Origin: Flexilinea flocculi
GTDB taxonomy: Bacteria > Chloroflexota > Anaerolineae > Anaerolineales > Anaerolineaceae
Direction of reading: 5' to 3'
NCBI RefSeq assembly: GCF_001192795.1
Contig: NZ_DF968181.1
Span: 586,342-650,341, forward strand
Length of the DNA: 64,000 nucleotides
The notes beneath the pieces were generated by a model. It was not told where the DNA came from. It made no database searches and saw nothing but the letters and a program-made list of their open reading frames with translations. The position numbers were made by a program, and so were the translations under genes. Shown one piece after another: positions 2,087 to 45,073 of this stretch (the stretch's first letter is position 1; each line of letters starts with the position of its first letter).

Positions 2087-2184
2087 TTTTTTCAGAAATG
2101 AAAAAAAAGTATAAACAGCCAAATTAGCCGAAATCCATTTTTCTTTCAAAATTCAGGTTTGCCGTAAAAAGGGAAATAAAAGTC

Positions 2185-2961: not shown

Positions 2962-3118
2962 ATTGATCATCGCATTAACAATATAAAATATCGATCGACC
3001 TTGCAAATGAATACCGCGGATTTAGTGGGCATTTATTCCTGCATTTCGCAAAATTGCAATAACAACAAATTAATCTTTAAATATATAGAACTGTTTCGTA
3101 TTCAGGAAATGAGAAAAA

Positions 3119-3934
3119 ATGAAAATTCATTCAATCGCTGCATTTAAAGGCGCCGGTGATCTGGCATCCGGAGCCGCAATCCGGTTGTGGAGGAGCGGAT
3201 TCCGGGTAATCCTTACGGAACTGCCAAGACCGTTATGTATTCGTCGTTCGGTTGCTTTTGCAAATACTGTTTTTGATGGAAATATGCGTGTAGAAGATGT
3301 AGAAAGCGCTCTGATTTCTGATTGTTCTCAGGCGGAAGCTGTCTGGGCTGAGAATAAAATTCCGGTTATTATCGATCCTGAATTCAAAAAAACGCTTGCA
3401 TTAAAACCGGATATCATCATTGATGCGAGAATTACAAAAATATGGCAAGCGGACACACATATCAATGATGCTTCCCTGGTTATAGGATTGGGCCCGGGTT
3501 TTAGAGCTGGAGACAACGTTCATGCAGTGATTGAAACGAATCGCGGGCACAATTTGGGACGTGTCATTTGGATTGGAGAAGCAGAACCGAATACAGGAAC
3601 GCCAGGAGAAATTAAAGGGCAGAGCGTTAAGAGAGTTCTCAAAGCACCCTGTGACGGTTTCTTCTATCCGCAGGTACAGATCGGAGATTTTATTAAAGCC
3701 GGAGAGACAATGGCAGTTGTCAATGACCAACCTGTGACAGCAGGAATTGACGGCATTGTACGGGGTGTTATTTATCCGGGAATTTTTGTTGAACAGGGAT
3801 TGAAAATAATGGATATCGATCCTCGGGGAAAACGGGAACACTGTTTTTCGGTTTCTGATAAAGCTAGCGCTATCGGCGGAGGTATTCTGGAAGCGATTCT
3901 TTCCTGGAACGTGCGAGAATCATTTCTGCAATGA
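3119..3934 (+). CDS. yqeB: selenium-dependent molybdenum cofactor biosynthesis protein YqeB
   Basis: A 271-residue protein of the YqeB (EF2563) family, linked by gene context to selenium-dependent molybdenum hydroxylases. The N-terminus has a nucleotide-binding-like segment FKGAGDLASGAAIRL. A central GLGPGFRAG and the C-terminal KASAIGGGILEAIL are also typical. Residues from about 175 contain a small barrel-like segment (VLKAPCDGFF, GDFIKAGETMAVV). The last 65 bp overlap, tail to tail, the 3' end of xdhC on the other strand. Confidence 0.85.
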   Translation: MKIHSIAAFKGAGDLASGAAIRLWRSGFRVILTELPRPLCIRRSVAFANTVFDGNMRVEDVESALISDCSQAEAVWAENKIPVIIDPEFKKTLALKPDIIIDARITKIWQADTHINDASLVIGLGPGFRAGDNVHAVIETNRGHNLGRVIWIGEAEPNTGTPGEIKGQSVKRVLKAPCDGFFYPQVQIGDFIKAGETMAVVNDQPVTAGIDGIVRGVIYPGIFVEQGLKIMDIDPRGKREHCFSVSDKASAIGGGILEAILSWNVRESFLQ

Positions 3935-4934
3935 TGCTGACAGCAATTTCTGCCGGTGTTTCTCCGTGAATCGGGAGTCCGATGGGAGAATGGATCCGTT
4001 TGATTTGCTCCTCATCTATGCCTTCTTTTCTTAATCGTTCATAAATCAGATCCCGTTTGTTTTTACTGCCGATCATTCCGATATAAAATGCGTCAGTACG
4101 AAGGACCTGTTTCAGAACGTCATAATCTCCCAGGTGTCCTCGCGTGACGATAATGATAAAGCTTTGATTGTCAATTGGGAGGTTTGGCAAGTCTGTATAG
4201 GATTTCACTGTAAGAACCTGACAATTTGGAAATCTCTCTTGATTGGAAAATTCAGCTCGATCATCCAGAACGACCGTCTGAAAACCGACAAAGTCAGCAA
4301 GGAACGCTGTGTCCTTGGCTACATGTCCTCCGCCAAAAATAAAGGCAGTATTCTTTTTTTGAACCTTATCCGCAAAAATAATTTCAGAGCTGTCCGGATT
4401 TCGAAGCAGCATCGTTGGCTGCTCAGATTGAAAAATGGTCTTAAGCGTCTCCTCCTTCAAGAAAAGATTGCCGATGATGGCTTTTTCTTCGGTAATAAAG
4501 CAAAAATCTGATGATTGTCTTGGAAAGTTTTCTTTAGAATACTGCGTTATCAGCCATCCTTTTCCTTGACCTGATATGGCAGCTATTGCTTTTCTGAATA
4601 CTTCAGATAGAGATGGATCAGATCCTGATATAAATGAAAGTAAAACTTCTCCAAGACCTCCGCAGACCATGTCAAATGCAGAAGCTTCTTTCCCTGTCAG
4701 TGAGTATTCAAATAATTTTGAGCATCCGGCTTCAAAGACCTCGTCCGCGGATTGAATTGCATTCGCTTCCAATTTTCCTCCGCCGATCGTTCCAACAATC
4801 GAATGATCTCTGTGGATCAGCATTTTCGTCCCGGAAGATCGGGGTGTAGCGCCTATGCTTTCAATCATGGTTGCCAGAACGACGTCTTCATGTTTCCCGA
4901 TGCTTTGAATGATTGCTTCGAATATTTTTTCCAT
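3870..4934 (-). CDS. xdhC: XdhC family protein (molybdenum cofactor insertion/sulfuration)
   Basis: A 354-residue XdhC/CoxI-type protein; family members bind molybdenum cofactor and help load xanthine dehydrogenase-type enzymes. Residues 28-60 hold the N-terminal domain motif IGATPRSSGTKM with IGGGKLEA. A Rossmann-like C-terminal part has FIFGGGHVAKDTAF, LDDRAEF, IVTRGHLGDYD, IGMIGSKNKRDL and SPIGLPIHGETPAEIAVSI. It lies 13 bp downstream of a PadR regulator and overlaps yqeB tail to tail. No hydroxylase subunit is present in this window. Confidence 0.9.
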   Translation of the reverse strand: MEKIFEAIIQSIGKHEDVVLATMIESIGATPRSSGTKMLIHRDHSIVGTIGGGKLEANAIQSADEVFEAGCSKLFEYSLTGKEASAFDMVCGGLGEVLLSFISGSDPSLSEVFRKAIAAISGQGKGWLITQYSKENFPRQSSDFCFITEEKAIIGNLFLKEETLKTIFQSEQPTMLLRNPDSSEIIFADKVQKKNTAFIFGGGHVAKDTAFLADFVGFQTVVLDDRAEFSNQERFPNCQVLTVKSYTDLPNLPIDNQSFIIIVTRGHLGDYDVLKQVLRTDAFYIGMIGSKNKRDLIYERLRKEGIDEEQIKRIHSPIGLPIHGETPAEIAVSIIAEMILARSRKESLPEYLRR

Positions 4935-16713: not shown

Positions 16714-18132
16714 ATGGAAAAAATTATTGCCGGTGGAAGAATTATTACTGAATCAGGAATTTTTGATGGAGATCTCTTAATCCGGGATGAAAAGATTATC
16801 GCAATCGGCGATAATTTACCGAGATATGAAGGGACAGAAATTATTGATGCTACGGAGAAACTCATTATGCCTGGCGGTGTCGATGCGCATGTTCATCTGA
16901 ATCTTCCAATGCCTGGAACTATCTCCTCCGATGATCATTATACAGGGACAATGGCAGCAGCGTTCGGCGGAACTACCACTGTGATTGATTTTGCCAATCA
17001 TGATCAACCCTCTCTTATTGATAGTTTTAAGACATGGCAAGCACAGGCTTTGCCGAATATTGCTGTGGATTATGGAATCCACCAAAACTTTACCACCTTC
17101 AATGAACAAACATTGGCCGAAATTCCATTGCTGCCTGAATTGGGAGTTACTTCAATCAAGATGTTTACTGCATATAACGGCCGAATGCGCTTGAGAGACG
17201 ACGAAATTTTTCAGGCAATGCGGATAGCTAAACAGGAAGGGATTATCTCACTGATTCACGCTGAAAATGGCGATTTGATCGATTTGTTGGTTAAAGAAGC
17301 ATTGGAGAGTGGTCATACTGAACCGATTTGGCATGCAAGAACTCGACCTGCTTGGGGAGCTGTTGAGTCGGTTTTACGGACAAGTGCAATTTCGTTTTCG
17401 GCAGGTAATGCTCCGTTGTATATTGTTCATATGAATGTTAAAGAGGAAGCTGACCAACTTTTGTATGCGCGAAATCACGGTCTGCCAATTTTTGGAGAAA
17501 CCTGTCCTCAGTATCTGTTGTTTACTGAAAAAGAATTGGAAAGAGAAGATGGCAAAAAATGGATTTGTTCACCTCCAGTCCGTTTAGAGAAGGATAATGA
17601 CGGATTGTGGAATGCCCTGGCAGATGGAACGATTGATGTGATTTCGACTGACCATTGTCCGTTTTTATATGATGGCACAAAACCAATCATGTATCAGGGG
17701 AAACCTTATCAGAGTCCCGGAAAAGAATTAGGAAGGGATGATTTCTCCAAAACTCCCGGCGGCGTTCCAGGTGTAGGGGATCGTATGTCGGTAATTTGGA
17801 CGAAAGGGGTTGTGGAAGGGAAATTGTCGCCGACAAGGTTTGTCGAGGTAATGAGCACAAACCCTGCTAAGATTTTTGGTTTATATCCACAAAAAGGGAA
17901 TCTTAATCCAGGATCTGATGCAGATATTGTTATTTGGAATCCTGAAAAGATTGTTAAATACGGCGTTTCAGTTGCTCGACATCGGACTGACTACAATCTA
18001 TATGAGGGGATGGAATTGAAAGGTTTTCCTGAGAAAGTATTTCTTCGTGGGAAATTGATTGTTGACGGTGATCAGTGGTATGGTGAACGCGGAGGCGGAC
18101 GTTTTCTGAAACGCAGCCGTTATAAGGCATAA
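16714..18132 (+). CDS. dihydropyrimidinase / hydantoinase
   Basis: A 472-residue amidohydrolase that opens dihydropyrimidine or hydantoin rings. The metal site is complete: H59 and H61 in DAHVHL, K149 (carbamylated lysine) in IKMFTAYNG, H182, H239 and D313 in STDHCPF. A GGAGC site precedes the ATG. Genes of this type often accompany selenium-dependent molybdenum hydroxylases in purine catabolism, and such accessory genes lie at the start of this window. Only 4 nt separate it from a complex-I-like membrane gene. Substrate cannot be fixed from sequence. Confidence 0.9.
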   Translation: MEKIIAGGRIITESGIFDGDLLIRDEKIIAIGDNLPRYEGTEIIDATEKLIMPGGVDAHVHLNLPMPGTISSDDHYTGTMAAAFGGTTTVIDFANHDQPSLIDSFKTWQAQALPNIAVDYGIHQNFTTFNEQTLAEIPLLPELGVTSIKMFTAYNGRMRLRDDEIFQAMRIAKQEGIISLIHAENGDLIDLLVKEALESGHTEPIWHARTRPAWGAVESVLRTSAISFSAGNAPLYIVHMNVKEEADQLLYARNHGLPIFGETCPQYLLFTEKELEREDGKKWICSPPVRLEKDNDGLWNALADGTIDVISTDHCPFLYDGTKPIMYQGKPYQSPGKELGRDDFSKTPGGVPGVGDRMSVIWTKGVVEGKLSPTRFVEVMSTNPAKIFGLYPQKGNLNPGSDADIVIWNPEKIVKYGVSVARHRTDYNLYEGMELKGFPEKVFLRGKLIVDGDQWYGERGGGRFLKRSRYKA

Positions 18133-30090: not shown

Positions 30091-30122
30091 AAAAAAACAA
30101 TCCTTAGCTGATAAAGGGATTG
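30091..30122 (-). terminator. terminator overlapping the ecfT stop
   Basis: On the minus strand CAATCC and GGATTG form a 6-bp stem over a 13-nt loop, followed by seven T's. The loop includes the TAA stop of the ECF transmembrane gene. Confidence 0.7.
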
Positions 30123-30940
30123 AAAAATCGTTGTCCATCTAAAAAAGTAATCAATAGTCCGATGATGGATAAAATCACAACGGCAGTAATCACACAATAA
30201 TCTGCCTTCTGAAAAGGACGTGCGCTGTACCACGTTCTTTTTTCTTTCTTTCCAAATCCTCGTAAATCCATGGCGTTGCTGATCAAATCAATTCGGTCAA
30301 GACTCGAAAAAATTAATGGAACCGCGATGATGGCGATGCCGGATATTCTTTTTTTTAGGCTTGTTTTCTTCGAAAGGTCGACACCGCGAGCTTGCTGTGC
30401 CTGAGAGATGTTGTGAAAGTCAGTTTGAATATCAGCGATATACCGCAATGTAATTGAGACAGCGTATGAAAGCTTGTAGGGAACTCGGATGCCTGTCAGA
30501 GAAGCTGCGAATTCGCTCGGATCCGTTGTCAGGAGAAACAACAGCGCTATCGGGACAACTGTCAAATATTTGAGCGTTACATTAAACAGATAAAAAAGCT
30601 GTTCCTGTGTGACGGTGTAACGATCTGAAATTTGAAAAATCAAATGGCGGGCACCATAGATCCTGACTCCTTCTTCGGGAGAAAAAAAATAAATAGCCGC
30701 ATCATTTAATAGAAGAAAAAAACAAATGAAGACAAGGATAAAACCGACTTCTTTAAGATGGATTTTTGCCAATTTGAAAATTATTAAACTGAAAACCATC
30801 GCTGTCAGCAGAACACGGGTATCATAACTCAGCATACAGACGACAGTCCAGGCTAAAAATGTTATCAGTTTTGTGACGCCATTCAAACGATGGACAGGTG
30901 AATCCCTTTTGATGTATGATAACATCTTTACTGTTGACAT
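30104..30940 (-). CDS. ecfT: ECF transporter transmembrane protein (T component)
   Basis: A 278-residue CbiQ/EcfT-type membrane protein linking the ATPases to the substrate-binding S subunit. It starts with SYIKRDSPVHRLNGVTKL and has several helices. The coupling motif region ARGVDLSKKTSLKKRI matches the usual ARG motif, followed by AMDLRGFG. It overlaps the 3' end of the fused ATPase gene by 13 bp. Confidence 0.9.
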   Translation of the reverse strand: MSTVKMLSYIKRDSPVHRLNGVTKLITFLAWTVVCMLSYDTRVLLTAMVFSLIIFKLAKIHLKEVGFILVFICFFLLLNDAAIYFFSPEEGVRIYGARHLIFQISDRYTVTQEQLFYLFNVTLKYLTVVPIALLFLLTTDPSEFAASLTGIRVPYKLSYAVSITLRYIADIQTDFHNISQAQQARGVDLSKKTSLKKRISGIAIIAVPLIFSSLDRIDLISNAMDLRGFGKKEKRTWYSARPFQKADYCVITAVVILSIIGLLITFLDGQRFFNPFIS

Positions 30941-32643
30941 GTCTGACGTGCCTCCCTGTCAAAGCTGATAAACTTCTTAACAAATTCAAACGGATCCGAA
31001 ATGGCGGCATATTTCGCCAGTGAAAAAAGACTGGTTTCCTTCAAATTCGCTAACCTGATGACACGATCATCCGTCAATACTTTTGCAGGGTGATTGTCGC
31101 AGATCAATTTTCCATCTGCAAGTACGATTGCCCGCTGTGTATACTCCAGGATCAGATGCATATCATGCGTTATCAGCAGAATTGTTTTTCCGCGTTTCTG
31201 TAACATTTGCAGGAATTCCATGATTTCTGTATAGTGTCGTAAATCTTGGCCTGCTGTTGGCTCGTCCAGAAGAATGATTTGGGGTTCCATGACTAATATA
31301 GACGCAATTGTGACTCGTTTCTTCTGCCCGTAGGATAATGCTGAAATTGGCCAGTTACGGTATGGATATAATCCACAGATTCGGAGTGTCTCCTCAACAC
31401 GTTCGGAAATTTCTTTTTGTGGAATATCACGAAGTTTTAATCCGAGTCCGACTTCATCGCGAATCATCACCTGGGAAATCATCTGATTCGGGTTTTGCAT
31501 GACCAGACCTACATAGTCAGCGCGCTCTCTGATTGAGACATGAGACATATCCTTCCCGAAAAGCGCAATTGTACCTTTGTCAGGTTTCTCAAATCCGCAT
31601 ATCAGTTTGCATAAAGTGCTTTTGCCGGCTCCATTTTTCCCGACAATCGCTGTCATTTCACCTTCGCAAATTTTAAAGCTGATGTTATCGAGGACAACTC
31701 TCTCTGCGGAGTATGAAAAACAAACGTCAGAAAATGATAATACTGAATTCGATGAGAGATTGCTTTCATTTTCCACAGTCTGTTCGTACCAGTGCTGAAG
31801 CGGTTTTGTGATAGTGTCCATATTCATCAGGCTGACATCGCTTGGATGCATTTCCTCTGTTATTTTAATCCCGGCATATTTTAATGCGGTCACATACAGT
31901 GGTTCACGAATCCCAAATTTTCCAAGCAACCCGGATGTGAGGATCTTATCTGGTGTAGTGTCTGCAACAATTCTTCCCTCTCCCATTAAAACGATCCGAT
32001 CCATCGGACGCCATAAAACATCTTCAAGCCGATGCTCGATAATGATCACAGTAGCTCCGGTATTTTTTGCCAGGTCATCAATTAATTCCATTGCATATCT
32101 TCCGGTTGCCGGATCCAGATTTGCTAACGGTTCATCAAACAGTAAAATATTGACCTGATCGATTAACACTCCAGCTAATGAGACTCTTTGCTTTTGTCCC
32201 CCGGACAGCTCTTTGGGTGTTGATCCCAGATGGGTGTGGATATCTACCAATCGGCTTGTTTTTTCAACTCTGGAAATCATCTCTTTTTGATCGATGGCAT
32301 CATTCTCGAGAGCGAAAGCGATATCATCTCCGACTGTTTGAGCAACGAATTGTCCATCAGAATCCTGTAATACTGTGCCAACAAATTTTGAAATATCAAA
32401 GATTTTCAAATTTGCTGCATTTTGTCCTTCAATCCAAAGGTTTCCGCTGATATTTCCTTTGTAAAAATGCGGAATTAGACCGTTAATACAATAACCAAGC
32501 GTACTTTTACCGCTGCCAGAAGGTCCGGCGATGATAATTTTTTCCCCCGAATTGATTTTTAAATTAATGTCAATTAACGTTGGATTTGATTGTGCTCGAT
32601 ATTGGAAACTGAAATTTGAAAAATCTATGATCGGGTTTTGCAT
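30928..32643 (-). CDS. ECF transporter ATPase, two ABC domains fused (A-A')
   Basis: A 571-residue protein with two complete ABC ATPase domains. First domain: Walker A GPSGSGKST near 38, signature LSGGQKQRV, Walker B ILLFDEPLANLDP. Second: GKNGAGKST near 340, LSYGQKKRV, IILLDEPTAGQD. It does the work of separate EcfA and EcfA' in one chain. The gene order S, A-A', T matches a dedicated (group I) ECF transporter. Confidence 0.93.
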   Translation of the reverse strand: MQNPIIDFSNFSFQYRAQSNPTLIDINLKINSGEKIIIAGPSGSGKSTLGYCINGLIPHFYKGNISGNLWIEGQNAANLKIFDISKFVGTVLQDSDGQFVAQTVGDDIAFALENDAIDQKEMISRVEKTSRLVDIHTHLGSTPKELSGGQKQRVSLAGVLIDQVNILLFDEPLANLDPATGRYAMELIDDLAKNTGATVIIIEHRLEDVLWRPMDRIVLMGEGRIVADTTPDKILTSGLLGKFGIREPLYVTALKYAGIKITEEMHPSDVSLMNMDTITKPLQHWYEQTVENESNLSSNSVLSFSDVCFSYSAERVVLDNISFKICEGEMTAIVGKNGAGKSTLCKLICGFEKPDKGTIALFGKDMSHVSIRERADYVGLVMQNPNQMISQVMIRDEVGLGLKLRDIPQKEISERVEETLRICGLYPYRNWPISALSYGQKKRVTIASILVMEPQIILLDEPTAGQDLRHYTEIMEFLQMLQKRGKTILLITHDMHLILEYTQRAIVLADGKLICDNHPAKVLTDDRVIRLANLKETSLFSLAKYAAISDPFEFVKKFISFDREARQTCQQ

Positions 32644-32660
32644 GGTTCCATTTTAATGAT

Positions 32661-32703
32661 TAAAGATGTTTTGAGATACGGAATTCATCTCAAAACATCT
32701 TTA
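32661..32703. promoter_or_regulatory. perfect 17-bp hairpin between ECF S gene and ATPase gene
   Basis: TAAAGATGTTTTGAGAT and its exact complement are separated by a 9-nt loop. The hairpin lies in the 113-bp gap, 18 nt before the ATPase ATG. It lacks a T-run in the direction of transcription, so it is more likely an mRNA-stabilising or attenuating element that sets S:ATPase ratio than a plain terminator. Confidence 0.6.
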
Positions 32704-32756
32704 AGATAAAAGGTCAAATATTCATTTTCGAAATATCAGACCTGAGTGCGAAATCC

Positions 32757-33305
32757 TTATTTTTCTATATTGAGACTGCCAGTCTTTGTACGGGTTCGAG
32801 CATAGATAGCGAGAAATGCAGTTCCAAGTATGGCGATGGTCACTAAGTTGGCAAGACCTGCAACCAGACCCTGCATAAAGACTTTATCCGAAGGTTCTGC
32901 ATAGATGATGATATCGAGAACAGGAGCAAGTAAGCCCCATCCGACGAGATTTGCCGCAATTTGGTAAAGATTGAAGGTAATAATTTCCTTCTTCCCAAAA
33001 ATGCCATTTTCGATATTAATTCTCTTCCAGGAAAGTCCGATCACGGCGCCAACAAAGACTGAAACGATGACCCAGCTCCACCAAACCGATCCATAAGCTG
33101 TAGCATCCGTTAATACATGTCCGATTAAACCAATCAAAGCTCCTGCGATTGGTCCAAAAATTACTGCCATAAAAGCTAAAAATGCATAGGCAGTATTGAT
33201 CGTTGTATTAGGAATTCCGCTTGGAATTGAGACAAACCGGTTTAGAACAAGGAAAACCGCGGCACCAATACCGATTGCGACTATTGTACGCGTTGAAAGT
33301 TTCAT
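32757..33305 (-). CDS. ECF transporter S component, UPF0397 family
   Basis: A 182-residue membrane protein, UPF0397-like: [18 protein letters not shown] start, [37 protein letters not shown] and SVWWSWV. It captures the vitamin or small substrate for the ECF transporter encoded downstream. Substrate is not established; some databases label the family riboflavin-type. The second of two near-adjacent ATGs (33305) is chosen because GGAG lies 6 nt before it and abuts the first. Confidence 0.88.
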
Positions 33306-33385
33306 ATGCATCTCCGAAAAATTTCAATTTTGAATATTTTTGTCTATAAGATTATATCATATTCGGAGATTTGTATTCTTTTTGA

Positions 33386-33507
33386 ACCATTCGAAAAATA
33401 GATAGAATTCTTTGTAGTTGTGATGTTGTTGTGCTTTGCGCAACAACATCACAACTACATGTTTTTCTCTCTTTATTCGTTTGGTTGGTCAATTTTTCGA
33501 AATTCTG
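33386..33507 (-). repeat. TTCGAA hairpin element, near-perfect 22-bp stem
   Basis: Left end CCATTCGAAAAATAG and right end CAATTTTTCGAAATTCTG. Hairpin arms 33413-33434 and 33438-33459 pair over 22 bp with one G:U, apex GTGC-TTT-GCGC. Short arm left (27 nt), long arm right (48 nt). It lies in the 331-bp gap upstream of the ECF operon; nothing else is evident there. Confidence 0.85.
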
Positions 33508-35602: not shown

Positions 35603-35726
35603 CAGAAATTTGAAAATATGGAAAAGCCTTTTGAGAAAAAAGAGGGATTTTGTTGTTATGTTGTTATTACTCGAAGCGGAACAACAACACAACAACAATG
35701 ATTCCTTTTCATATTTCGAATTGCAG
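35603..35726 (+). repeat. TTCGAA hairpin element
   Basis: Left end CAGAAATTTGAAAATATGG, right end CATATTTCGAATTGCAG followed by CGAATTACTG. The hairpin spans about 35650-35697 with apex CTC-GAA-GCG and arms of TTGTTGTTATGTTGTT type. Long arm left. It sits between the GT-C-like gene and pyrK. Confidence 0.8.
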
Positions 35727-35764: not shown

Positions 35765-36556
35765 TTATTTTGTGAAAGAAGTCGGACCGTCTTTGCAAAC
35801 CAACCAGGCTTTTTTACTACCCGGTTTATTGACAGGTTCTTCCCAGGTGTCCGGCATTTCGATCTTACAGTTGCCACACAAACCCATCCCGCAGCGCATG
35901 ATTGCTTCCCAGGATAACTGGCGAGGTATGCCGTATCGCTCACAAAGGGCATCAATTCCGTAGAGCATTTTTTTAGGTCCGCATGCATACACACACGCAT
36001 CTTGAACATCTGATAATTGTTGGATTGTCTCCTCTAACGGGACGGTTACAAATCCCTGAATTCCGCGAGTTCCATCATTGGTAGTGATATGTAGTTTCAC
36101 TGGTATTTTTTCGAATTCATCAACGAGGATAAGCAGATTTGCAGATCTGGCGCCCAGAAATACATGCACATTGATACCTTTTTTGATAAGCGTTTCTGCC
36201 AAATAAAGGAGTGGTGATGCACCATAGCCTCCTCCAACCAGCAATGCATCTTTCCCATAAGGTTGGTATCCTTGACCAAACGGCCCTCGAATCCATAATC
36301 GGTCTCCGGGTTGATATCGATCGATCTGACCGGATACTTTTCCAACGTCAGCAATCGTGATCATTAATGGATTGCTTCCAGCAACACTAAATGGCTTTTC
36401 TCCCAAACCAGGAATCCAGATAAGAATAAACTGTCCCGGCTCACTCGCCATGGGTTCTTTCATAATCAGGCTGTGTGTTGTGTCATTTTCAATTCTAACT
36501 TTGTCTACAGTAAAGACTCTCGATTTTTTTTCTTCCATCGAAAATGGTTTTTCCAT
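35765..36556 (-). CDS. pyrK: dihydroorotate dehydrogenase electron transfer subunit
   Basis: A 263-residue FAD and [2Fe-2S] protein that passes electrons from PyrD to NAD+. It has a ferredoxin-reductase-like N-terminal barrel (EPGQFILIWIPG, EKPFSVAG), the NAD-binding LVGGGYGASPLLYLAETL, and a C-terminal cysteine cluster CGMGLCGNC with a distal LVCKDGP. It begins 3 bp after the pyrD stop, forming one transcription unit with it. Confidence 0.93.
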   Translation of the reverse strand: MEKPFSMEEKKSRVFTVDKVRIENDTTHSLIMKEPMASEPGQFILIWIPGLGEKPFSVAGSNPLMITIADVGKVSGQIDRYQPGDRLWIRGPFGQGYQPYGKDALLVGGGYGASPLLYLAETLIKKGINVHVFLGARSANLLILVDEFEKIPVKLHITTNDGTRGIQGFVTVPLEETIQQLSDVQDACVYACGPKKMLYGIDALCERYGIPRQLSWEAIMRCGMGLCGNCKIEMPDTWEEPVNKPGSKKAWLVCKDGPTSFTK

Positions 36557-36559
36557 AAT

Positions 36560-37462
36560 TTACCGCCAAATCTTTCCGCAAATTTCAGACAGATTATTAT
36601 ATCCTTCTGAATTCATGAATTCTTCAAACTCAACGAGTATTTTCGTAAATGCTTCATATCCTCGATAATACAATGCGGATCCAATTCCGACAGCGCTTGC
36701 CCCCGCAAGTATCATTTCTGCCATGTCAAGGCCTGAAGAAACTCCTCCCATCCCGATAATTGGGATACTGACTTCCTTATAAATATCAGAAATACACTTC
36801 AAAGCGATCGGTTTTAAAGATGGTCCGGAAATCCATCCGCTGCCCTGGCTTAGAAATGGTTTTGCAGCATAGGCGTCAATTACCATTCCTGGAACCGGAT
36901 TTACCGCGGTGATAAAATCGGCTCCGGCATCCTGCGCTTTTCGGGCAACTTTCCCAATATGCGAACAAATCGCAGACAATTTCACTGATATTGGGATCAA
37001 TCCGGCATTAACTCGCACTGCAGCGGTAATCTCCGCGACTAATCCTGGATCATATTCCGGTAGAACGAACTCGATTATATCGGGTTGTGCAAGCTTGATT
37101 TTTGTTGTCAATTCAACAAATTCATCAGGATTATCCGCATAGATATTTGCAATGACCGGTACCACCGATTCAGCGGCTTTTTGTCGGTATGCATTGATTA
37201 AATAAACCATTGAATCAACTCCCGGATTGGTCAGTCCAAGATTTGTGATGAGGCCACAGCCCCAATCGGATGAAGCCGGATTATCAGTCCCAGGCCGGTA
37301 TTTTAATGTACAGCTTTTTGTTGTAACTGCGGCGGCACCGCTTTTTGCTGCGCGAACTAACAAAGAATCGCTGTTCCCTGAAATTCCTGATGCAAGAATT
37401 ATGGGTGTTTTGAGGTGGATTTGATCGGATAATCTGCAGGAAAAATCTGGCATGTCAACCAT
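36560..37462 (-). CDS. pyrD: dihydroorotate dehydrogenase catalytic subunit, atypical active-site loop
   Basis: A 300-residue class 1B-like PyrD (FMN TIM barrel) paired with PyrK. Conserved parts are TKSCTLKYRPGTDNP, NLGLTNPGVD, VKLSAICS, AVNPVPGMVIDAYAAKPF, GISGPSLKPIALK-like SGPSLKPIAL, GMGGVSSG and GASAVGIGSALY. The usual NxSCPN segment carrying the catalytic cysteine is not found: at that place the chain reads IIEFVLPEYDPGLV (residues 129-142). So the enzyme either uses another base or has another substrate. pyrK is 3 bp downstream. Confidence 0.85.
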   Translation of the reverse strand: MVDMPDFSCRLSDQIHLKTPIILASGISGNSDSLLVRAAKSGAAAVTTKSCTLKYRPGTDNPASSDWGCGLITNLGLTNPGVDSMVYLINAYRQKAAESVVPVIANIYADNPDEFVELTTKIKLAQPDIIEFVLPEYDPGLVAEITAAVRVNAGLIPISVKLSAICSHIGKVARKAQDAGADFITAVNPVPGMVIDAYAAKPFLSQGSGWISGPSLKPIALKCISDIYKEVSIPIIGMGGVSSGLDMAEMILAGASAVGIGSALYYRGYEAFTKILVEFEEFMNSEGYNNLSEICGKIWR

Positions 37463-37507: not shown

Positions 37508-37630
37508 TAGTAATTCGAAAAATAGACTTGCTATTCGAATACTGAGATAGAAACTTGTTATTGTGATGTTTTTATGCAGAACTCAAAAACATCACAACAA
37601 CAAAGAATCCTCTCTATATTTTGAATTGCT
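37508..37630 (+). repeat. TTCGAA hairpin element
   Basis: Left end TAGTAATTCGAAAAATAG, right end CTATATTTTGAATTGCT. The hairpin spans about 37554-37603 with apex ATGC-AGA-ACTC. The long left arm contains the internal TTGCTATTCGAAT motif shared with other copies. Confidence 0.8.
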
Positions 37631-37711
37631 ATATCTGAAAGAAAAACTCCAACGATTTGATATTCTATCGAACCGCAGGAGATACTCTCTTGCAACGTTA
37701 TATTGTCAACA

Positions 37712-37746: not shown

Positions 37747-38496
37747 TTAGAAGTAATAATCGCCTTTTTGCAGTTTTTCCTGTTCGGACTCTCCACCCAG
37801 ATAAGCTGCCTGGACTTTTGGATCGTTGAGAAGCTCTTGTCCTGTGCCGCTCACAACAATTTCCCCAGTTTCAAGGACATATCCGCGGTCAGCGATTGCT
37901 AAAGCCATTTGAGCATTCTGCTCAACCAAAAGGATACTGGTTCCAGTCTGATTGATGTCAAAAATAATATCAAAGATCTGCTCCACCAGAATCGGCGCCA
38001 GCCCCATAGAGGGTTCATCAAGAAGCATTAAATCTGGATGCCCCATCAAGCCACGTCCGATCGCAAGCATTTGTTGCTCTCCGCCGGACAATGTCCCTCC
38101 AGGTTGCGTTCTGCGTTCTCTCATCCTTGGAAATAGCTGATAAACATGTTCCATATCTTCTTCAACCTGAGCTTTATTGTCATTTAAAAATGCGCCCATC
38201 TCCAGATTTTCCTGAACTGTTAATTTCGGGAAGATATGTCGTCCTTCCGGAACCTGGATAATACCTTTTTTGACAATCATATCTGTAGGTAAACCGGTAA
38301 TTACTTCATCCTTATAAGTAATTACTCCGGATTGGCCTTGAACCAGTCCTGAAATTGAATTCAGGGTTGAACTTTTTCCTGCGCCATTTCCGCCGATGAG
38401 GGCGACAATTTCCCCTTTATTTACTGTTAAAGAGATCCCTTTTAACGCATGAATCGCACGATAATAAACTTGTAAATCTTTAATTTCGAAGTACAT
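37747..38496 (-). CDS. livF: branched-chain amino acid ABC transporter ATP-binding protein LivF
   Basis: A 249-residue ABC ATPase. Walker A GGNGAGKSST near residue 36, signature TLSGGEQQMLAIGRGLM, Walker B LMLLDEPSMGLAP, and the LivF-type C-terminal ETGEIVVSGTGQELL. It is the last gene of a compact livHMGF unit, 2 bp after livG. Confidence 0.95.
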   Translation of the reverse strand: MYFEIKDLQVYYRAIHALKGISLTVNKGEIVALIGGNGAGKSSTLNSISGLVQGQSGVITYKDEVITGLPTDMIVKKGIIQVPEGRHIFPKLTVQENLEMGAFLNDNKAQVEEDMEHVYQLFPRMRERRTQPGGTLSGGEQQMLAIGRGLMGHPDLMLLDEPSMGLAPILVEQIFDIIFDINQTGTSILLVEQNAQMALAIADRGYVLETGEIVVSGTGQELLNDPKVQAAYLGGESEQEKLQKGDYYF

Positions 38497-38498
38497 AA

Positions 38499-39332
38499 TT
38501 AGTCCAAATTCCCTTTGTCAGCTTTGCGCCTGGAATACTTTTCGACAAGGTTTTCTGTACCTGATCCCAGGTAGGCTTCAATTACTTTTTGGTTGGATTG
38601 AATCTCATCCGGTGTTCCCTGGGCAATTTTCTCTCCATGATCCAGAACAAGGATTGAATCGGAAATATTCATCACAACTTTCATATCGTGTTCAATAAGA
38701 ACGATGGTGATTTTTAATTGTGAGCGCAATGTATTAATGAGCTCAATCATGGCAGAAGTCTCATGGGGATTCATGCCGGCGCAAGGTTCATCCAACAGTA
38801 ATAAATGCGGATTGTTTCCAAGAGCGCGTGCAATTTCCAATCTGCGTTGTGCACCATAAGGCAGGTTATTGGCTACATCATCTGCATAGGCTCCCAAACC
38901 AACAAAATCAAGCAGGTTACAGGCTTTTTGAATCGATTGTTTCTCTTCTCTGCGATTGCGGAAGGTTTGAAAAAGCGTATCGATGCAAGTTGAGCGAAGT
39001 CTGGGCTGCTGTCCAATCAGCACATTTTCAATAACTGACATATTTGTAAATAGCCGTATATTCTGGTACGTACGTGAAATGCCCAGATTCGCAATTTCAT
39101 CGGTGGGAATTCCATTAATTGGGCGCTCTTGAAAGAAAACGGTTCCATTGTCACAGGCATAGAATCCTGAAATACAGTTAAAGAAAGTCGTTTTTCCTGC
39201 GCCATTGGGTCCGATGATGCTGATGATGGATTCAAACGGGACCTGAAGACTGACATCATTGACAGCAGTCAAACCGCCGAAATTGATTGTAATATTTTCT
39301 GCTTCTAATACGTAGGAAGGCTTTTTTGTCAT
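38499..39332 (-). CDS. livG: branched-chain amino acid ABC transporter ATP-binding protein LivG
   Basis: A 277-residue ABC ATPase with Walker A GPNGAGKTTFFN near residue 41, the LivG-type YQNIRLFTNMSVIENVL, LPYGAQRRLEIARAL as signature region, and LLLLDEPCAGMNPHET. It overlaps the livM stop by 4 bp. Confidence 0.95.
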   Translation of the reverse strand: MTKKPSYVLEAENITINFGGLTAVNDVSLQVPFESIISIIGPNGAGKTTFFNCISGFYACDNGTVFFQERPINGIPTDEIANLGISRTYQNIRLFTNMSVIENVLIGQQPRLRSTCIDTLFQTFRNRREEKQSIQKACNLLDFVGLGAYADDVANNLPYGAQRRLEIARALGNNPHLLLLDEPCAGMNPHETSAMIELINTLRSQLKITIVLIEHDMKVVMNISDSILVLDHGEKIAQGTPDEIQSNQKVIEAYLGSGTENLVEKYSRRKADKGNLD

Positions 39333-40909
39333 GGTTTTAAGTCCTCCTTTAATATTTCGATTGATTCAGGTGCGACAGAAAGTTTCCGCCGTTTCACTGG
39401 CCATATTCCTTCTGGACGGATAATCATCATAACGATTAACAAAGCCCCAAACACAACCATACGATAATTCTCCAGATCGCGCAGCAATTCCGGCAGCCCT
39501 TTAATAATGAACGCCCCCAGCAATGTTCCCGGGATGGAACCCATTCCGCCGACAACAACAACTGCTAAAGCGTTGACGGAAACCATAAATGCATATTCAC
39601 TTGGGCCAGTATACGTGTTACGAGAAGCGTACAAAGCTCCAGCAGCGCCTGCTATGGCGGCTCCGATGACAATTGCTAATACTTTGTAGGAGCTTGTGGT
39701 TACACCACAGGCTTGTGCTACTGTTTCATCTTCTCTCATCGCTTCCCAGGAACGGCCTGTTCTTGAGTATTGGAGTCTAAACGCTGCATAGAGGACGATA
39801 AGAAATACAAAAATAATCAGATACAAAAACCAGACATTGTCTTCCAACGGTTCTCCGAAATATTTTTCAAAAATAGATGGTTGTATTGGCTGCCCGATAT
39901 TTTTAATTCCTTGCGGTCCGCCGGTATAATCAGCCATCAGGTTGCTATTAATTAAGATCCGGACAATTTCTGCAAAGCCGAGTGTGACAATTGCGAGATA
40001 ATCTCCTCGTAGATTCATAATTGGAAGACCGACTAAAAAACCTCCGATTCCTGCCACGATCAGTGAAACCAATAAAGCCAGCCAAAAATTCATTTCGATA
40101 CCAAACGGTTTGGGAGCAGTCAACAGACCGAAAGTATAAGCTCCCAAAGCGAAAAATGCTACATAACCGAAGACCAACTGCCCGGATAAACCGACGATCA
40201 AATTCAACCCCAATCCCATGATTGCGTAAATCAAGACAATTCCAAGCACAGAAATGGTATAGGCATTGATGACCAGCGGCAGCAAAAGAAATGCGATTAT
40301 CAGGAGAAGGATTAAAACAGTTTTTACAGCAGGATATCTTTCGAACGCACGTCCGATTTGGATTTTCTCCTTCAAATGAGTAAGCGCGCGGACTGATTTT
40401 GCAGGCTGATTTGTTTTTTGTGAAATCCAAAATAGGATCAGCGCTGCCATACTGCCAAGAATCGTTGACATGAAATAATATGTAACTGCTTTTTGGATGT
40501 CAGTCTGAAAAAGAAATGCCCGAATAACATCTGGCGCTAACGCTTCAAGATAAACACGAACATCTTTACCGTTTACCAGATAACTTCCAAGAATGATATT
40601 TAAAAGAGAAATGAGTAAACCAGAAACAATACTGATTGTGACAGCAGCAAAAAATCCCTGACCGAATGAATATTTTTTCTGAGAGTTTCGGGTTCTTAAA
40701 AAGTTAATCGTAGTGAAGAATACAATCAACCCTACAACAAGTCCCATATAAAATGGCGTAATTGCGTTCTTCGCTGCAGTTCCTCCGGTGAATAACTTTT
40801 CGAGGATTTCTGCCAATGTAGAGGTAAGATTTATCATCTCACAAAAAATAAGAATAATACCTGCGACAATCCCAAATTTGCTCGATTTAGATAGTATCGT
40901 TTTCATCAT
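39329..40909 (-). CDS. livM: branched-chain amino acid ABC transporter permease LivM with N-terminal extension
   Basis: A 526-residue permease. The normal LivM core begins near residue 200 (YAIMGLGLNLIVGLSGQL at about 228) and includes GDYLAIVTLGFAEIVRI and the EAA-like AMREDETVAQACGV. Ahead of it lie about 190 extra residues with four or so membrane helices, roughly doubling the N-terminal part relative to ordinary LivM. It overlaps livH by 4 bp. Confidence 0.93.
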   Translation of the reverse strand: MMKTILSKSSKFGIVAGIILIFCEMINLTSTLAEILEKLFTGGTAAKNAITPFYMGLVVGLIVFFTTINFLRTRNSQKKYSFGQGFFAAVTISIVSGLLISLLNIILGSYLVNGKDVRVYLEALAPDVIRAFLFQTDIQKAVTYYFMSTILGSMAALILFWISQKTNQPAKSVRALTHLKEKIQIGRAFERYPAVKTVLILLLIIAFLLLPLVINAYTISVLGIVLIYAIMGLGLNLIVGLSGQLVFGYVAFFALGAYTFGLLTAPKPFGIEMNFWLALLVSLIVAGIGGFLVGLPIMNLRGDYLAIVTLGFAEIVRILINSNLMADYTGGPQGIKNIGQPIQPSIFEKYFGEPLEDNVWFLYLIIFVFLIVLYAAFRLQYSRTGRSWEAMREDETVAQACGVTTSSYKVLAIVIGAAIAGAAGALYASRNTYTGPSEYAFMVSVNALAVVVVGGMGSIPGTLLGAFIIKGLPELLRDLENYRMVVFGALLIVMMIIRPEGIWPVKRRKLSVAPESIEILKEDLKP

Positions 40910-42009
40910 ACTTTCTCCACGCTTGAGGATGATTTTCCAAAGAGTCCGGAAGGTTTCAAGATCAGAACCAGGATCAGAATGGTAAATGCGATGACATCCT
41001 TCAATTGAAAATCGATTCCGAGAAAAGCCGGGCCGACTGATTCAACAATTCCCAGAATCATTCCACCTGCCATTGCGCCGGGAATATTTCCGATTCCTCC
41101 GAGAACTGCTGCAGTAAAAGCTTTGATTCCAGGCAGGAAACCGACAAAATGATTGAAAAGGCCGTTATGAAGCCCCCACATTACTCCGGCAGATCCGGCA
41201 AGAATACCGCTGATGATGAAGGTTTGGCTTGTCACTCGGTCAAGATTGATTCCCATTAATTGAGCAGTATTCTTATCCTGGGAGACTGCACGAATCGATT
41301 TACCGAGTTTTGTTTTTTGGACAAAGAAATAGAGTGCGATCATTAATACTACAGCCATTATCAAACTGAAAACGCCGGTTTTGGTAATGACAATCATGCC
41401 ATCACCCATTTTGATATTCCAGCCGGTTCCTCTTTCTAACAACAGGGGATTCTTATAGGTTTTCTTATTAGCTCCAAACATGATCTGGGCTGCAGTCTCG
41501 AGAAAAATTGAAGCTCCGACTGCACTAATTAATGGAGCCAGGCGTACATGGGAGTTTCGCAGCGGACGATAGGCGATTTTTTCCAGATAAAAACCACTGA
41601 CTGCAGAAACGGAAGCGCCTATCAGAAAAGCAAGGATAATTGCTGGAACAGGGTATGCATTTAAAAAATTTGATTCTCCCACTTTCAGAAAATTAAAAAA
41701 TTCAAAAGTGAAATAACCCGCGAAACAGCCTAACATCATAATATCGCCGTGGGCAAAATTGATAAGAAGCATGACGCCGTATACGAGCGTGTAGCCAATT
41801 GCAATCAGAGAATACATACCTCCGACGATCAATCCTGTATTTAAAAAGCCAAGCCAATATACGGGACCATATTCAGGCTGAATTATTTGAATAATTATAC
41901 GATAAAGAACATAAGCACCAGCAATCACGCCGACGATCCAACGGAGCCAGTTGATCCTTTTTACAGTTTGTTTTGCGGAAGGTTGATGGTGAGGTTTTTC
42001 TGCATCCAT
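40906..42009 (-). CDS. livH: branched-chain amino acid ABC transporter permease LivH
   Basis: A 367-residue inner-membrane permease. Typical features are GLIVGGMYSLIAIGYTLVYGVMLLINFAHGD, AYRPLRNS, and the coupling segment RAVSQDKNTAQLMGIN, with GIGNIPGAMAGG near the end. A hydrophilic tail plus one extra helix at the N-terminus (about 45 residues) makes it somewhat longer than usual. It is the first gene of livHMGF, 416 bp downstream of the binding-protein genes. Confidence 0.94.
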   Translation of the reverse strand: MDAEKPHHQPSAKQTVKRINWLRWIVGVIAGAYVLYRIIIQIIQPEYGPVYWLGFLNTGLIVGGMYSLIAIGYTLVYGVMLLINFAHGDIMMLGCFAGYFTFEFFNFLKVGESNFLNAYPVPAIILAFLIGASVSAVSGFYLEKIAYRPLRNSHVRLAPLISAVGASIFLETAAQIMFGANKKTYKNPLLLERGTGWNIKMGDGMIVITKTGVFSLIMAVVLMIALYFFVQKTKLGKSIRAVSQDKNTAQLMGINLDRVTSQTFIISGILAGSAGVMWGLHNGLFNHFVGFLPGIKAFTAAVLGGIGNIPGAMAGGMILGIVESVGPAFLGIDFQLKDVIAFTILILVLILKPSGLFGKSSSSVEKV

Positions 42010-42321
42010 ATAAATATGTTCGCTCCTTCTGAAGAATTTATTTGAAATATCTTGTATGAAGATATGTTTTTATAGATAAACGCTTGCATGTGCTATTTTC
42101 AACATTTCAATCAGTTCAATTTGAAACTGACTGCGGTTAAGAATTGTATTGTTTTTATCTCTTCGTGATAACTTTAGGATTCAATTCTATCATTCTCAGT
42201 TTACAAACATACAGAAAAGGATAAGAATTGTGACGATCTCAATAAAGAAAATGCATATTTTAACCACAGTTTAAATGACTCAAAATGAGATCGGTATTTA
42301 ATTACTGAAGGAGAAGAATTA

Positions 42322-42400
42322 ATAAAAAAAAGCCTCTGTCGGGGCATTTATCGTATTATTTAGATTAATACGTCAAAAATGGAGCCCGACAAAAGGCATA
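42322..42400 (-). terminator. terminator of the second Liv binding-protein gene (nested stems)
   Basis: GCCTCTGTCGGG (from 42332) pairs with CCCGACAAAAGGC (to 42397), and inside lies a second stem CGTATTA/TAATACG (42352-42372). On the minus strand the outer stem is followed by a run of T's (42323-42330). The remaining 42010-42321 upstream of livH is AT-rich and probably holds the livH promoter, which I cannot place exactly. Confidence 0.6.
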
Positions 42401-42425
42401 TTAATGCTGATATAAAATAAATTTC

Positions 42426-43622
42426 TTATTCAGGCAGCGTCCATTTACCGTCCTTCACAATATAGAAGGTAGGACCTGATGCATTGCACTCGCCATTTTC
42501 ATCACAAGTGATTTCGCCGGTGATGCCTTTGTACCCTGAAACGCTGCGAACACCTTTTACCATGGCTTCCCGTGGAATATACAGATTTCCGTCATCGCCG
42601 AGAATGGCTGTATTTCGAATGACCGATGCGAGCACATTGGCTGAATCAAATGCAAACCAGCAATATCCAGCTTTGGATCCGGCTGCCCGTCCATAAGTTT
42701 CCAGATATTTTGCGTCAAATGCATCTTTCTCTGCTGAAGTCGGTGGAATGGATGAAGTGCCATATACACCTTCGGCATTTTTGCCTGCTTTTTCAATAAA
42801 TTCCACACCGAATGCACCGTCATCACTGAAAATGGGGATACCTTCCATACCTACCTGACTTAATTGATTGGCAATTACTGCCAATTCAGCAGTATAACCT
42901 CCATAGTAGATGATTTCCGGCTTCTTAGATGCAATGGAGGTCAAAACTGCTGAATAATCTGCCTCACCTGGTGTCAGCGATTCATAAGAGACTGGTTCAA
43001 CGCCCTTACTGAGCAGTGTATCACGAACAATATCCGCTATTCCTTTCCCATAATCCATACCATCATGAAGAATTGCTACTTTGGTCATTTTCAGATGATC
43101 GAGAATGTAAAGTGCTGAGGATTGTCCCTGAATTTTATCCGTGAAAACCACACGATTGAATACGGAATTTCCACTGGTTAATTGTGCCCCTGTGGCTGAT
43201 GGAGATAGCATCGGGATTTTTGCCTTTTCATATATCGGAATTGCTGCTGCGGTTTCACCGCTGAGTGTGTGTCCGATTACAGCCACAAAGGTTGGATCCA
43301 TTGCCCACTTACTGGCAACAGCAACTGCTGATTCGGGTGCTCCCTGCGTATCCTCTGCTAAAAGTTCGAACGAGAAACCATTAAAAGGTTCCAGCGCGTC
43401 AACCGCAATTTTTGAACTTTCGGCATTGTCAGTGCCATACATTGCGTATTCGCCTGTCATCGGTCCTGCTACTCCCAGCTTGATGGTTTCACCAGGCTTG
43501 ATGATTGCACAGCTCCCAGGTTCTTTGCATTCAATCGGTGCTGCTGCAAAAACACTCGTCCAGATTCCCGATAACAGGGAAATAATAAAGAGAACCATTA
43601 AAATTGATAAAGGTTTTTTCAT
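42426..43622 (-). CDS. branched-chain amino acid ABC transporter substrate-binding protein (second)
   Basis: A 398-residue periplasmic-binding-type (LivJ/LivK, type I fold) protein. Signal peptide MKKPLSILMV... to about residue 27, then CKEPGSCAIIKPGETIKLGVAGPMTG. Further motifs are VIGHTLSGETAAAIPIYEKAKIPMLSPSAT, VAILHDGMDYGKGIAD and TPGEADYSAVL. It is a close paralogue of the gene just upstream. A 264-bp gap with a strong hairpin separates them. Confidence 0.93.
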   Translation of the reverse strand: MKKPLSILMVLFIISLLSGIWTSVFAAAPIECKEPGSCAIIKPGETIKLGVAGPMTGEYAMYGTDNAESSKIAVDALEPFNGFSFELLAEDTQGAPESAVAVASKWAMDPTFVAVIGHTLSGETAAAIPIYEKAKIPMLSPSATGAQLTSGNSVFNRVVFTDKIQGQSSALYILDHLKMTKVAILHDGMDYGKGIADIVRDTLLSKGVEPVSYESLTPGEADYSAVLTSIASKKPEIIYYGGYTAELAVIANQLSQVGMEGIPIFSDDGAFGVEFIEKAGKNAEGVYGTSSIPPTSAEKDAFDAKYLETYGRAAGSKAGYCWFAFDSANVLASVIRNTAILGDDGNLYIPREAMVKGVRSVSGYKGITGEITCDENGECNASGPTFYIVKDGKWTLPE

Positions 43623-43783
43623 GATTTACTCCTTTCAAAAGTAAATTACGAAGGAAAAATTGTGAAAACAATCAATTGCTTCATTAAGAATTGATTGTCA
43701 GTGGACGATTATTTAATTGTTTCTAAGGTGGAATAACAATTGGCAGAGGGACTGCAGTGATAGGCGAAAAATCTTATTTTGAA

Positions 43784-43821
43784 TATCCTCATCTTCGACT
43801 TCGTTGTCGAAGATGAGGATA
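43784..43821. promoter_or_regulatory. perfect 16-bp hairpin between the two Liv binding-protein genes
   Basis: TATCCTCATCTTCGAC pairs exactly with GTCGAAGATGAGGATA across the loop TTCGTT. No T-run follows on the minus strand, so it may stabilise the upstream mRNA or act as a leaky stop. It lacks the family termini of the TTCGAA elements. Confidence 0.65.
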
Positions 43822-43885
43822 CAATTTCACATTCTTTCAGGATAGCTTGAAAGAGGTATTCACTGAAAGAAATACAATTAGGTTA

Positions 43886-45073
43886 TTATTTGGAAGCAAG
43901 CTCCCATGCACCATTTTTTACAATGTAGAATGTAGGTCCGGACGCGTTGCACTCGCCAACTTCATCACAGGTGATTTCGCCGGTCAGACCTTGATAGCCG
44001 GAAAGTGTGCGGACTGCAGTGACTAATTCAGCACGTGGAATATACAGGTTGCCATCATCTCCAAGGAAAGCGACGTTTCTGATGACAGAAGCAAGCGCCT
44101 GGACTACATCATATGAGAACCATGGGAACGGAGTCTTTGAACCAGCTTTACGGCCAAGGGTTTCTTCATATTTTTTATCAAAGGCGAGTTTTTCCGGTGA
44201 ATCAGCAGGAACGGAGGTCGTACCATAACAGCCTTCTGCATTGGCGCCGGATTTTTCGATGATTTCTGTGCCGAATGCACCGTCATCACTGAAGACCGGT
44301 ACACCTTTTAAGCCGACTTGGCCCATCTGATTGATGACGACAGAAAGTTCAGCAGTATAACCGCCATAATAGATGATTTCGGGACCTTTTGAGGCAATTG
44401 CAGTCAGAACGGCTGAATAATCGGCTTCGCCTGGTGTCAGCGCTTCATAAGCAACCGGTTCAATTCCCATTTCTTCTAAAGTGGCTTTAACGGTGTCGGC
44501 AATACCTTTTCCATAATCCAGACCATCATGTAAAACGGCAATTTTCTTCAGTCCGAGCGTATTGACAATAAATTCCGCCGCAAATTTACCTTGCGTAGCA
44601 TCCTGGAATACAATACGATTGAAAACTGAATTGTCCTCTGTCAGATTGGCGCCGGTTGCTGAAGGAGAAAGCATCGGGATGAAAGATTTTTCCATAATCG
44701 GAATAACTGCTGCAGATTCTCCGGTAAGGACATTTCCTGCAACTGCAACAAAGGTTGGATCAGTAATCCATTTATTGGCAATTGCGACGGCGGATTCAGC
44801 AGAACCTACGGAATCTTCAGCAAGAAGTTCCCAATTAAAACCTTCCAATGGTTCGAGTTCAGAAATTGAAATTTTCTCGCTGTCGGAAATATCGACGCCG
44901 TACATTGCATACTCTCCGGTAAGAGGACCTGCCATACCGATTTTAATGGTCTCTCCCGGTTTAATGACAGCACATCCGCCATCAACATCACAGCGGGTCA
45001 TGTCAGCAGCGAATGCAGTTGAAAAAGCTGAAAGCAGCATCGCTAAAACAACGAACAACAACGATTTCTTCAT
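43886..45073 (-). CDS. branched-chain amino acid ABC transporter substrate-binding protein (first)
   Basis: A 395-residue LivJ/LivK-type binding protein. Signal peptide MKKSLLFVVLAMLLSAFSTA to about residue 22, then CDVDGGCAVIKPGETIKIGMAGPLTGEYAMYG. Two cysteines near the N-terminus (CDVDGGC) recur in the second copy and in a C-terminal EITCDEVGECNASGP, suggesting disulfides. GGAG lies before the ATG. Paralogue of the next gene downstream. Confidence 0.93.
   Translation of the reverse strand: MKKSLLFVVLAMLLSAFSTAFAADMTRCDVDGGCAVIKPGETIKIGMAGPLTGEYAMYGVDISDSEKISISELEPLEGFNWELLAEDSVGSAESAVAIANKWITDPTFVAVAGNVLTGESAAVIPIMEKSFIPMLSPSATGANLTEDNSVFNRIVFQDATQGKFAAEFIVNTLGLKKIAVLHDGLDYGKGIADTVKATLEEMGIEPVAYEALTPGEADYSAVLTAIASKGPEIIYYGGYTAELSVVINQMGQVGLKGVPVFSDDGAFGTEIIEKSGANAEGCYGTTSVPADSPEKLAFDKKYEETLGRKAGSKTPFPWFSYDVVQALASVIRNVAFLGDDGNLYIPRAELVTAVRTLSGYQGLTGEITCDEVGECNASGPTFYIVKNGAWELASK

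Follow-up and report, generated by a model that had tools for sequence, protein, structure and literature searches.

We found that a PyrD-like flavoprotein of the DHO_dh family (hereafter PyrDv), encoded in a 64,000-nucleotide stretch of Flexilinea flocculi DNA (the window), has lost the catalytic loop of dihydroorotate dehydrogenases and much of their substrate site. The loss marks a single clade, purifying selection acts on PyrDv and on its PyrK-like partner (PyrKv), and a canonical PyrD is encoded elsewhere in the same genome. The pattern of lost and retained residues makes it probable that, within one branch of Flexilinea-like Anaerolineaceae, a former biosynthetic PyrD-PyrK acquired a different function, giving a neofunctionalised pair that would work as an NADH-linked flavin oxidoreductase on a substrate other than dihydroorotate. 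Nature has thus provided a loop deletion in a textbook active site, with the redox partner kept and close relatives that still have the loop, which makes PyrDv a clean test case for a change of function in a biosynthetic flavoenzyme. In the open-access literature we found no description of a Cys-less, PyrK-coupled PyrD. Below, genomes carry G labels (G000 is the window's own genome) and loci L labels.

Fold and active site of PyrDv

The PyrDv gene (36560-37462, minus strand) encodes 300 residues and was recognised from its ORF, Pfam, PDB sequence matches and the alignment of its clade. Membership of the TIM-barrel DHO_dh family is clear from Pfam (168.6 bits, cut-off 27), and the top three PDB sequence matches are dihydroorotate dehydrogenase (DHODH) B chains, including Lactococcus lactis PyrDB. 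The protein falls below both class 1 NCBIfam models (TIGR01037, 240.7 against a cut-off of 270; NF005574, 230.9 against 269), and it should not be annotated as a dihydroorotate dehydrogenase. Neither does it belong with the dihydropyrimidine dehydrogenases PreA/PydA, since the PreA model gave 84.9 of the 335 bits needed and a Pfam scan of all 300 residues found no C-terminal ferredoxin domain. A structure model (mean pLDDT 61) places a strand (residues 129-133), a short turn and a helix (139-153) where the loop would be, with pLDDT below 50 at residues 56-80 and 189-214, which include part of the substrate site. Searched with Foldseek against the PDB, this model retrieved DHODHs first (best 5ue9_A, E 4.6e-16), a result that confirms the predicted fold only, the model being too weak for the substrate site.

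The catalytic segment of the window protein is IIEFVLPEYDPG, opposite AIELNISCPNV of L. lactis PyrDB, to which it aligns as PDIIEFVLPEYDPG. The remnant of NxSCPN is formed by the codons of V133-L134-P135-E136-Y137-D138 (37049-37066, minus strand), as judged from the sequence, the column counts and the loop listing, and the next 12 residues of the relatives are absent. In the column counts (five variant, 25 sister and ten other rows) the Cys position is E, D, A, F and F across the five known PyrDv proteins and never Ser, and the Ser position of SCPN is Pro in all five. According to a table in PMC10395836, Ser takes the catalytic role in class 1S and class 2 enzymes; residues 129-140 of the window protein contain no Ser. 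The placement of the deletion differs between programs, P135 falling opposite the Pro of SCPN with HMMER and opposite its Ser with MAFFT, and under neither placement does an equivalent Cys or Ser appear in the loop; a small alignment of two distinct proteins, which put the loop elsewhere, is superseded by the larger one. N[IL]SCPN is present in 28 of the 28 sister rows that span the loop (two of which duplicate another row; L114 and L115, which do not span it, stand outside the count). The original observation that the NxSCPN segment had been replaced therefore holds, and it holds in five genomes, in frame and free of stops. A substitute Cys elsewhere in the protein is not apparent either, the only invariant Cys of the clade being the N-terminal C9. 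Because the Cys position varies so widely, it holds no conserved replacement base.

The loss is larger than originally described. After the motif, all five proteins share a deletion of 12 residues (12 columns) in the lid, and the three Asn residues of PyrDB that we take to be its orotate contacts are gone as well: in 5/5 the equivalent of N72 is Thr, that of N132 is Val or Asp, and that of N137 is deleted in this alignment (PyrDB numbers were counted from the HMMER alignment to PyrDv). Residues of the FMN site and others, namely K49 (PyrDB K48), K161, N188, G239-G240 and G261, are the same as in other PyrDs. The claim that most class 1B landmarks are kept is thus right for the FMN site and wrong for the substrate site. 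At or beside the altered positions the PyrDv clade has invariant residues of its own, T73, N74, L134, P135 and D138.

Descent, partner and selection

Searches of 61 genomes, the window's own included, and then of 14 genomes of the genus found the PyrDv type in five (G000, G001, G002, G010 and G011), which is five of the 14 genus genomes. Among the matches listed for 400 genomes of the order, four PyrDv proteins scored 582-593 bits (that of G011 is not among them) and the next protein 307 bits, and a scan for peptide patterns in 84,980 species genomes yielded seven loci, one of them of the PyrDv type (L033, the G010 protein). In a maximum-likelihood tree of 48 rows the five form a single group (support 100/100), nested inside a clade of Anaerolineaceae PyrDs with intact loops (99/96) and set on a stem of 0.99 changes per column. 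Its nearest neighbour, with weaker support (93/88), is L011 of G031, which keeps NLSCPN and whose 20-kb region holds Liv-type genes and no pyrFE, pyrB or pyrC match. PyrDv is 41-49% identical to the PyrDs of this sister clade (27 rows compared). Of the 28 loci of that clade, 19 have a pyrFE match beside pyrD and 25 a pyrK match there, contig ends cutting some of them. Since it is nested among such genes, the window gene descends from a biosynthetic-type PyrD, and it now has pyrK as its only pyr neighbour.

For the second alignment, L002, L003 and L033 (the same or nearly the same protein) and L030, L031, L038 and L039 (distant or fragmentary) were omitted, and proteins were trimmed to start 12 residues ahead of the hit and to span at most 330 aa. 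The tree additionally omitted L029, L032, L035, L037, L097, L102, L113, L114 and L115 (fragments, duplicates or distant), and X letters from N runs were stripped beforehand. The tree program flagged the meeting of some deep long branches; no join that it named contains the PyrDv clade.

PyrKv (263 aa; 35765-36556, minus strand), identified from family models, Pfam and its Cys pattern, scores 195.9 against the curated PyrK model (cut-off 224), has NAD-binding and [2Fe-2S] motifs and keeps the cluster pattern CX4CX2C...C at C222, C227, C230 and C254. It adjoins PyrDv in five of five genomes. PyrKv shares 48% identity with a PyrK from a sister-clade pyr operon and only 29% with the canonical PyrK of G000, and so travelled together with PyrDv. 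Purifying selection acts on both genes, with dN/dS of 0.065-0.076 (G000-G010) and 0.095-0.122 (G002-G011) for PyrDv and of 0.053-0.058 and 0.075-0.103, respectively, for PyrKv; values are quoted for these two close pairs only, as for most pairs dS was saturated or YN00 gave no result.

We infer the catalytic activity of the pair, and its direction, from the sites conserved in the two proteins. Electrons would pass from NADH through the FAD and [2Fe-2S] of PyrKv to the FMN of PyrDv. With only a short turn left of the loop that in other PyrDs bears the catalytic Cys and closes over dihydroorotate, and with most orotate contacts replaced, the FMN face would be open and without dihydroorotate chemistry. 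The hydride or electrons of NADH most likely go instead to an acceptor for which no Cys acid/base is required; this might be a larger heterocycle, an enone, a quinone or a protein. In a more specific version, which we put forward tentatively, the lid was deleted in an ancestor and the pair may now use NADH to reduce a new and probably bulkier substrate, reusing the class 1B electron chain on the open FMN face. Of the two options originally offered, a related oxidoreductase working with the same PyrK partner is thus the one that we retain; a variant active site fits poorly with a Cys position that is E, D, A, F or F.

PyrDv-PyrKv could instead be catalytically dead, with PyrDv serving PyrKv in a structural or regulatory role, or it could be an NADH diaphorase without a specific small substrate. 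We consider such a pseudo-enzyme unlikely. In its favour, the substrate-site residues are mostly lost with no conserved new base, and selection maintains the pair; against it, the FMN-site residues do not vary within the clade and match those of other PyrDs, and the clade's own invariant residues hint at a new specificity.

Gene neighbourhood and pyrimidine genes

Upstream of the pair lie genes of a livKKHMGF-type ABC transporter (37747-45073, minus strand; ORFs and family scan) and downstream those of an ECF transporter (30104-33311, minus strand; family scan), whose S component exceeds the riboflavin-type model NF010182 (247.6, cut-off 99). The pair comes after livGF in G000, G010 and G002 (the G011 contig ends there), and ECF genes come after the pair in G000, G010, G002 and G011, directly or past one gene of 616 aa. 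G004, which has no PyrDv, carries livKHMGF and then ECF genes, livF being followed directly by the ECF S gene with no pair between them (L124 7311-8675). In G001 PyrDv-PyrKv stands beside obg-like and nadD-like genes, and a Liv transporter of the same type is on another contig. The pair was thus inserted into, or lost from, a standing liv-ECF gene order. G003, G008 and G009, in which no PyrDv was found, likewise encode relatives of LivK (E up to 1e-60); with relatives that carry the transporter and lack the pair, the Liv genes are a poor guide to the substrate and are probably neighbours rather than functional partners of PyrDv, and we dropped the transporter as a strong substrate clue. Neighbours outside the family scan were named by eye or by BLAST to genes of the window or of L051. 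Intergenic regions of the window carry a palindromic repeat, about 80-96 nt long, at 37545-37640, 35650-35724 and 33389-33470, with at least 67 matches in the genome (E up to 0.001; 40 of 254 candidates scored), many of them both strands of one element.

The window also contains YqeC, YqeB and XdhC-type genes (1337-4934) and a dihydropyrimidinase gene (16714-18132), and YgeY, YgeW and a lone YgfK are encoded elsewhere in G000 (L074 6813-9398 and L141 8912-11899). These genes either belong to the reductive uric acid pathway outlined in PMC12507026, as parts or helpers, or are similar to components of it. PyrDv might accordingly be a heterocycle reductase recruited to purine or hydantoin breakdown, by analogy with Clostridioides difficile UacX, a published DHO_dh protein with such a use in that account. 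Besides the presence of this gene set in G000, with the dihydropyrimidinase some 18 kb from PyrDv, the G001 PyrDv lies near the same gene block, from its other side. We nevertheless judge this role improbable: YgfK is over its cut-off in all six genomes searched, the five with PyrDv included, so no YgfK step is visibly vacant, and PyrDv shares no operon with these genes, their nearness being possibly plain synteny. As a replacement for YgfK in particular, PyrDv is a weakened candidate on the same count.

Besides PyrDv, G000 contains exactly one PF01180 match, a canonical PyrD with NLSCPN (G000:C2:453704-454552) that exceeds the NCBIfam cut-offs (354.5 against 269 and 330.3 against 270). A second complete pyrD had been named at the outset as a sign that the present copy is not needed, and PyrDv is indeed not needed for orotate synthesis in this genome; the oddity of the copy remains. 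The canonical gene lies in a livKHMGF-pyrK-pyrD-pyrB-carbamate kinase-pyrC run (L051 8184-18593, that is G000:C2:448183-458592), the last gene of which passes the dihydroorotase cut-off (305.7 against 279) and comes near that for allantoinase; pyrF and pyrE stand side by side away from it. G009 carries this run in full, G010 and G011 have it truncated by contig ends, and G013 has part of it. The run resembles an operon for orotate breakdown that includes a dedicated importer, and its carbamate kinase suggests, by analogy with orotate fermenters, a use in orotate breakdown; the accessible portion of PMC6022934 contains nothing on orotate fermentation. A second, shortened pyrB of 268 aa near an N run (L072 7087-7893, G000:C2), 100% identical to the first copy in the BLAST match, reflects either an assembly effect or a recent duplication.

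That PyrDv is still a dihydroorotate dehydrogenase, its base being another residue (e.g. E136 or D138) or a bound water, we regard as highly improbable. The retained PyrK partner, K49, N188 and FMN site would suit it, as would the finding that in two of the five genomes, G001 and G002, the PF01180 search found no canonical PyrD, leaving PyrDv the sole PF01180 protein, and that G002 has pyrE and pyrF. Absences in MAGs are a weak argument: both genomes are incomplete (89% and 82% complete, respectively), and even G008, rated 95% complete but split into about 610 contigs, lacks any PF01180 match. The remaining evidence points the other way. Canonical PyrD is present in G000, G010 and G011. G001, which retains PyrDv and PyrKv, lacks a pyrE match over the cut-off (the best reaches 24.1 bits, E 3.5e-5), and we count this, with its single PF01180 protein, in favour of a changed function; its two PF00215 matches, which by eye sit among sugar-type genes, reach 90 and 82 bits where those of the other four genomes reach 193-196 (the family cut-off, 27, is low), and its best match to the pyrC model (197 bits against 279) is an orthologue of the window's dihydropyrimidinase. 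Against a strong use of what G001 lacks, G002 keeps pyrE and pyrF, and a pyrC over the cut-off is also absent from G002, G010 and G011, contig ends cutting the clusters of the last two. At the active site, the Cys position is Ala or Phe in three of five proteins, and the lid and the three orotate-contacting Asn are gone in all. In PMC10395836, Cys-to-Ala and Lys-to-Ala mutants of a class 1A fungal DHODH failed to restore yeast growth without pyrimidines, which makes retained dihydroorotate activity unlikely in PyrDv.

An assembly or frameshift artefact can be dismissed, since five assemblies share the same in-frame shortened loop without stops in proteins 57-98% identical to each other, which is not chance or sequencing error. 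The changed function that we favour has a practical side for annotation, as pathway tools are likely to label PyrDv as PyrD, and in G001 it could pass for proof of pyrimidine synthesis despite the lack of a pyrE over the cut-off.

Comparison with known systems

The closest characterised enzymes are the class 1B DHODHs (L. lactis PyrDB, PDB 1EP1-1EP3; 5UE9), with which PyrDv shares the fold, the sequence family, the FMN-site residues and an adjacent pyrK with matching domains. It differs from them in having no catalytic Cys, in a lid shorter by 12 residues, in the lost equivalents of Asn72, Asn132 and Asn137, in scores below the NCBIfam cut-offs, and in having pyrK as the only pyr gene beside it. 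The nearest relatives of all are the Anaerolineaceae sister PyrDs (L008-L014, L093-L113), joined with PyrDv in one clade and including one whose PyrK is closer to PyrKv than is the canonical PyrK of G000; unlike PyrDv, they keep N[IL]SCPN and the lid, and most have pyrFE beside pyrD. The DHO_dh-like proteins of Anaerolineales at L015, L020, L022, L027 and L028 resemble PyrDv in a short loop without SCPN; however, they form a separate clade (100/100) and the Asn (LNT) missing from PyrDv is still there in all five. Two of them, seen at full length (363 and 372 aa), have C-terminal Fe-S motifs, and no NCBIfam model is over its cut-off for these two among the matches listed (E up to 1e-20).

Further afield, UacX replaces YgfK in the uric acid gene cluster of C. 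difficile, as described in PMC12507026, and X1 and X2 are presented in PMC4016543 as further uncharacterised dehydrogenase clades of the DHO_dh superfamily. By these descriptions, on which the comparison is based, they are like PyrDv in being DHO_dh proteins with an established or suspected part in other chemistry of heterocycles, and UacX is set apart from it by being a homologue of PydA that has an FMN site and no FAD domain. Since anaerobes already use DHO_dh relatives to break down uric acid and pyrimidines, a further activity is plausible for PyrDv; the UacX and X1/X2 cases make a new substrate plausible and single out none.
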